Of a stretch of DNA of 43,504 nucleotides, positions 41,273 to 41,520 are shown in pieces (within the stretch, counting starts at the first letter, position 1; every line of letters starts with the position of its first letter). A model generated the notes under the pieces. That model was not told where the DNA came from. It saw nothing but the letters and a program-made list of their open reading frames with translations, and ran no database searches. This stretch comes from Candidatus Rokuibacteriota bacterium. GTDB lineage: Bacteria; Methylomirabilota; Methylomirabilia; Rokubacteriales; CSP1-6. The position numbers were made by a program, and so were the translations under genes. The stretch spans positions 8,550 to 52,053 of the forward strand of contig QHSR01000259.1 of NCBI GenBank assembly GCA_003221635.1, read 5' to 3'.

Positions 41273-41520
41273 TTACTCGAGAATGGCGAGGACTTCACCT
41301 CGGAGCCGGAGTACTTCCCGAACAGGATCTTGTCCCCGGTCTTCACGTCGAGCGGGATCTTCTTGCCCTCGTCGGTGACCTTGCCGTTGCCGACGGCGAT
41401 CACCTTGGCCTCTTGGGGCTTCTCCTTGGCCGTGTCCGGGATAATGATCCCGCCCTTCTTGACCTCTTTCTCCTCGAGCCGCTCCACCAGAAGCCGATCG
41501 TGCAACGGACGAATCTTCAT
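41273..41520 (-). pseudogene. groES: Co-chaperonin GroES with internal deletion and frameshift near the 3' end
   Basis: [76 protein letters not shown], then the frame is lost; the expected C-terminal VLAILE-stop lies in another frame right after. The span of 248 bp is not a multiple of 3. Confidence 0.8.

Follow-up and report, generated by a model that had tools for sequence, protein, structure and literature searches.

The window, a 43,504-nt stretch of contig C327 in the draft genome of an uncultured soil bacterium of the Rokubacteria (G000; 335 contigs totalling 5.17 Mb, with a completeness of 88.8% and a contamination of 5.2%), carries on its reverse strand a groES gene (41273-41520) followed by groEL (39639-41258), an open reading frame of 539 aa. 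groES starts at position 41520, preceded by a clear ribosome-binding site, AGGAGGAGG, and its first 76 codons (41293-41520), which include the mobile-loop region, encode a normal Cpn10, as judged from Pfam PF00166 and from identity to the corresponding gene on contig C79 of the relative G008. Beyond these codons the frame is off: after GKYSGSEVK it enters TCCTCGCCATTCTCGAGTAA, and the residual end of the gene (41273-41292, reverse strand), with the codons for VLAILE and the stop codon TAA, sits in another frame. As assembled, the open reading frame continues to 41002 (41002-41520, reverse strand), giving a 172-aa product in which the groES N-terminus is followed by 96 out-of-frame residues that run into groEL. 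The original prediction had described a normal N-terminus of about 75 residues, a missing conserved block before an out-of-frame VLAILE-stop, and a 172-aa frame ending at 41002 within groEL, all of which was borne out by the Pfam match, the sequence and the alignment described below.

In a DNA alignment of the window with eight relatives, a 40-bp gap is the sole large difference within groES. The gap lies near 41292-41297, its exact placement being ambiguous by a few bases, and the junction (41291-41297, reverse strand) falls in an imperfect GAGG...GA.G repeat and shows microhomology of about 1 bp. The loss is exactly 40 bp, that is, 13 codons plus one base, from a gene that is normally 288 bp long including the stop, a slight refinement of the first estimate of roughly 40 bp missing from about 290 bp.

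The Pfam Cpn10 match to the window frame covers residues 2-77 and profile positions 1-76 of 93 (98.9 bits), short of the whole domain (1-92/93), and the intact paralogues extend to position 92. Likewise, in a search of solved structures, the match to 1wnr chain A spans residues 3-76 of the window frame and residues 3-95 of an intact paralogue. No Pfam family matches the 172-aa frame beyond its first 76-77 residues, and, with the VLAILE codons out of frame, neither an in-frame C-terminal segment nor the last strand is encoded. In the GroES heptamer, the last strand of each subunit pairs with the subunit next to it. Since this strand is lost, together with the conserved segment IDDKEYLIMREDD, the window copy as assembled would be expected to give no working GroES.

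The frameshifted product might instead be a functional variant co-chaperonin, either as the 172-aa form or, through ribosomal -1 shifting, as a GroES that lacks 13 internal residues. The conserved 76 N-terminal residues would suit such a variant, and shifting by -1 at the junction would bring the final codons back into frame. However, there is no slippery heptamer at the junction and the arrangement occurs in no relative, for which reasons we reject a programmed frameshift. Moreover, the 96-aa tail is simply groEL read out of frame, and two normal groES copies exist in the genome. We regard a functional variant as highly improbable.

Further copies of groES and groEL in the genome

The same assembly contains two more full-length groES genes, on C184 (95 aa, ending VLAILE) and C317 (96 aa, ending VLGILGS), and on both contigs groEL comes next. 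groEL is represented by three full genes, a fourth that is 5′-truncated on C171, and a weak fragment on C8. Although groES is normally essential, loss of one copy is not expected to be lethal given the full-length copies elsewhere, and a lethal lesion in a genome with no second groES can be rejected. Thus, of the options originally proposed, a search of the rest of the genome did find a second groES, in two copies; nothing supports the suggested altered chaperonin arrangement, which is unneeded because each of the two full-length groES genes is followed by its own groEL.

On C171 (12000-21159), the 5′-truncated groEL lies at the contig end, a 25-N scaffold gap precedes its C-terminus, and the sequence past the gap is not groEL. 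Duplicate groEL genes, and stand-alone groEL genes without a neighbouring groES, are common in bacteria, according to an excerpt of PMC5406781.

The groES lesion is private to this assembly

The best matches in public collections are Candidatus Rokuibacteriota metagenome genomes, the top one being 99% identical in protein sequence across the 76 N-terminal GroES residues. The syntenic groES of G008 (C79) is intact and shares 97.4% DNA and 98.7% protein identity with the 228 bp kept in the window. Copies of the same type are also intact in G003, G016 and AR7 (L039), and every other extracted groES bar one (G017:C99) ends normally at 95-96 aa. In a profile survey covering 95 genomes from the phylum, almost every groES match extends to profile position 92 or 93. 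Within contigs, the window, G017:C99, G044:C63 and a fragment in G039:C136 depart from this; a few other matches are truncated at contig ends. No groES match was obtained in this survey for three of 53 high-quality relatives. The lesion is therefore private to the window's assembly.

The sole groES match in G017, a further Rokubacteria genome (92% complete; C99, 1-4000), lies at about 312-527 and stops after 71 codons (GKYS-stop), the stop falling just before an open groEL; this is either another C-terminal loss that arose independently or a further assembly fault. On G044:C63 (8500-11132), as seen in the survey only, groES is split into two overlapping frames that cover profile positions 1-56 and 47-92.

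The rest of the window groES and groEL shows no excess or cluster of private substitutions, and dN/dS against G008 is low; hence, we reject slow decay of this groES copy. We reasoned that, with an intact relative at 97% identity and no decay elsewhere in the gene, the lesion is either very young, if real, or present only in the assembly. As in a pseudogene, homology is clear, the frame is disrupted, the syntenic relative is intact, and intact copies are found elsewhere in the genome.

The operon is a mosaic of two paralogous loci

From flanking genes and trees, we assigned groESL operons to two loci, A (G008:C79, G003:C168, G016:C133 and AR7) and D (G008:C17, G003:C327, G006:C25 and G007:C37). 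The window operon is a mosaic of these: locus A accounts for the upstream flank, for groES itself and for the initial ~420-500 bp of groEL, and the remaining groEL and the recR-ybaB-dnaX side are of the second locus, D. The original description of an intact groEL thus holds for the open 539-aa frame but not for its derivation from a single locus. Between 240 and 480 bp, groEL is 98-99% identical to the A-type copy on G008:C79 and 82-87% identical to D-type copies. At sites that separate the two loci, the window is A down to ~40846 and mainly D from ~40620; from 40620 to 40246 it is D at 10 of 12 sites, and the truncated groEL of C171 is A at all 12. A tree of the groEL 5′ part places the window with A (support 99/98), and constraining it to D is rejected (p-AU 0.0006). 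A tree of the 3′ part places it with D (support 95/90), although constraining it to A is only marginally rejected (p-AU 0.053).

The flanks concur. Upstream of groES lies a gene of the transglycosylase-associated family (41614-41955, reverse strand; Pfam PF04226), and collinear similarity to A-type G008:C79 continues into further genes, to 43074. On the other side are recR (38971-39573, forward strand), convergent with groEL, ybaB (38644-38958; identified by Pfam) and dnaX (36836-38647). recR adjoins D-type groESL in G003, G006, G007 and G008, and the similarity of the D-type loci to the window, which reaches to 36419 on the recR side, breaks off at the first base of groES. On G008:C17 (L168), an integrase-like gene and a tRNA-like stretch (1132-2229) lie directly upstream of the D-type groES, unlike at other D loci; the upstream flank of the D locus is therefore not conserved.

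Two tRNA-Ser genes and a large bacterial SRP RNA (36422-36906, forward strand) lie directly upstream of dnaX, a block that is kept in D-type loci. A small deletion near dnaX (36910) was considered as a sign of error-prone assembly and rejected, as it is natural variation among relatives and the SRP RNA is complete. There is no CIRCE element upstream of groES in the window. A perfect 14-bp inverted repeat, GTGACCAGGTCGAG...CTCGACCTGGTCAC (41561-41600, reverse strand), lies 40-80 bp upstream of groES and has no T-run; it folds at -27.4 kcal/mol (z -5.4), occurs once in the genome, is present in G008, G016 and AR7, is missing in G003, and could form a leader hairpin.

The A-to-D switch falls within 40621-40846 (reverse strand), as delimited by diagnostic sites and exact shared stretches. 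This interval holds 104 bp identical to C171 (40826-40723) and 103 bp identical to C184 (40838-40736), such that different loci lie on either side of a shared exact repeat, as in a chimeric contig. C171 is cut by its contig end inside groEL at the switch position, and carries A-type groEL onward from there. Contigs of at least eight relatives likewise end inside groEL (G008:C79, G003:C168, G016:C133, G001:C123, G002:C37, G002:C44, G004:C80 and G021:C81), which probably reflects the effect of a multicopy conserved gene on short-read assembly. The position of the switch on the ~104-bp shared stretch suggests that copies of a repeated gene were mis-joined, though true recombination of paralogues would leave the same pattern.

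Origin of the lesion

An assembly defect, in which pieces of the multicopy, conserved groESL were wrongly joined and the true A-locus groES would be unbroken, like that of G008, has a probability just short of even. The division of the trees and flanks between A and D, the position of the switch on sequence exactly common to C171 and C184, and the end of C171 at the same place all point to such a defect, as do the contig breaks in relatives and the three high-quality genomes that lack a match to a normally essential gene. The switch would then be a second apparent fault, ~450-650 bp from the 40-bp junction. Moreover, the draft was scaffolded with badly sized runs of N, and a close relative is intact, which the original prediction had named as a sign of artefact; the mosaic contig leans the same way. 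Besides the A-to-D mis-join, the 40-bp loss itself would need a fault in scaffolding or gap closing, a chimeric read, or a read from a minor strain. However, there is no long, mis-join-prone repeat at the 40-bp junction, and a k-mer assembler would not create the junction without reads that contain it. The exact other half of the operon is not cleanly supplied by C171 either, since its first 36 bp differ from the A part of the window at five positions, and the grouping of the 3′ part with D is the less firm of the two placements, given the marginal rejection above.

Real recombination between paralogous groESL operons, giving a hybrid whose groES later decayed, seems unlikely. It would account for an A-type 5′ part and a D-type 3′ part, each bordered by the flank of its own locus. 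The assembly yielded no D-type groES, and the pieces lost when a hybrid forms by deletion would be precisely the groES of D and the end of an A groEL. On the other hand, A-type groEL 3′ sequence persists on C171 and stops at the same point, like an assembly break, and no relative has the hybrid arrangement. Less probable than any other reading is that such a recombinant operon encodes a C-terminally shortened GroES that still serves the adjacent GroEL as a co-chaperonin, either specialised or inhibitory.

The reading that we place slightly ahead of an assembly defect, at about an even chance, is a real and very recent 40-bp deletion in a redundant groES copy. One of at least three groESL operons would have taken a frameshifting deletion near the 3′ end of groES, and the cell would tolerate the loss thanks to the full-length groES genes at other loci of the genome; the window groEL could use GroES from those copies, a form of complementation. 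The junction lies well inside a 73-kb contig, there is no N within the window, and the deletion ends, with ~1 bp shared and an imperfect short repeat, look usual for slippage deletions. These features, together with the two other groES-groEL pairs, the unclustered private substitutions and the low dN/dS, would favour a deletion carried by the cell itself over one confined to the assembly. Counting against a real deletion are the resemblance of the mosaic to a mis-join, the intact closest syntenic relative, and the fragmented, scaffolded draft, one of whose badly sized runs of N lies inside the C171 groEL. Note that these readings partly overlap, since a genuine deletion could also sit in a genuinely recombined operon.

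Discussion

We conclude that the window groES represents either a dead copy of an ordinary sort or a fault of the assembly, rather than a new kind of chaperonin. A broken groES among redundant copies, if real, would be unremarkable and carry little biological weight; what is new here is the mosaic operon. The locus serves as a caution: in drafts built from short reads, groESL operons present in several copies break and recombine, and where an essential chaperonin gene seems lost or altered in such a draft, read support is needed. A literature search on Rokubacteria chaperonins and chimeric groEL contigs found nothing of use.

The window resembles bacterial groESL operons (group I chaperonin, Cpn10 PF00166 and Cpn60 PF00118) in the order groES-groEL, in groES residues 1-76 and in a full-length groEL frame, but its groES is frameshifted and lacks the last conserved segment, and its groEL is a mosaic of two paralogous loci. 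As in Myxococcus xanthus, for which an excerpt of PMC5406781 describes duplicate groEL genes with a single shared groES, groEL genes outnumber functional groES, and a groEL would rely on GroES from elsewhere; unlike in that species as described there, a putatively broken groES is still present here. The chaperonin pseudogenization in 'Candidatus Phytoplasma pruni', as outlined in part of PMC13245659, is similar in that the lesion affects a chaperonin gene, but here redundant intact copies exist and loss of the system is not implied.
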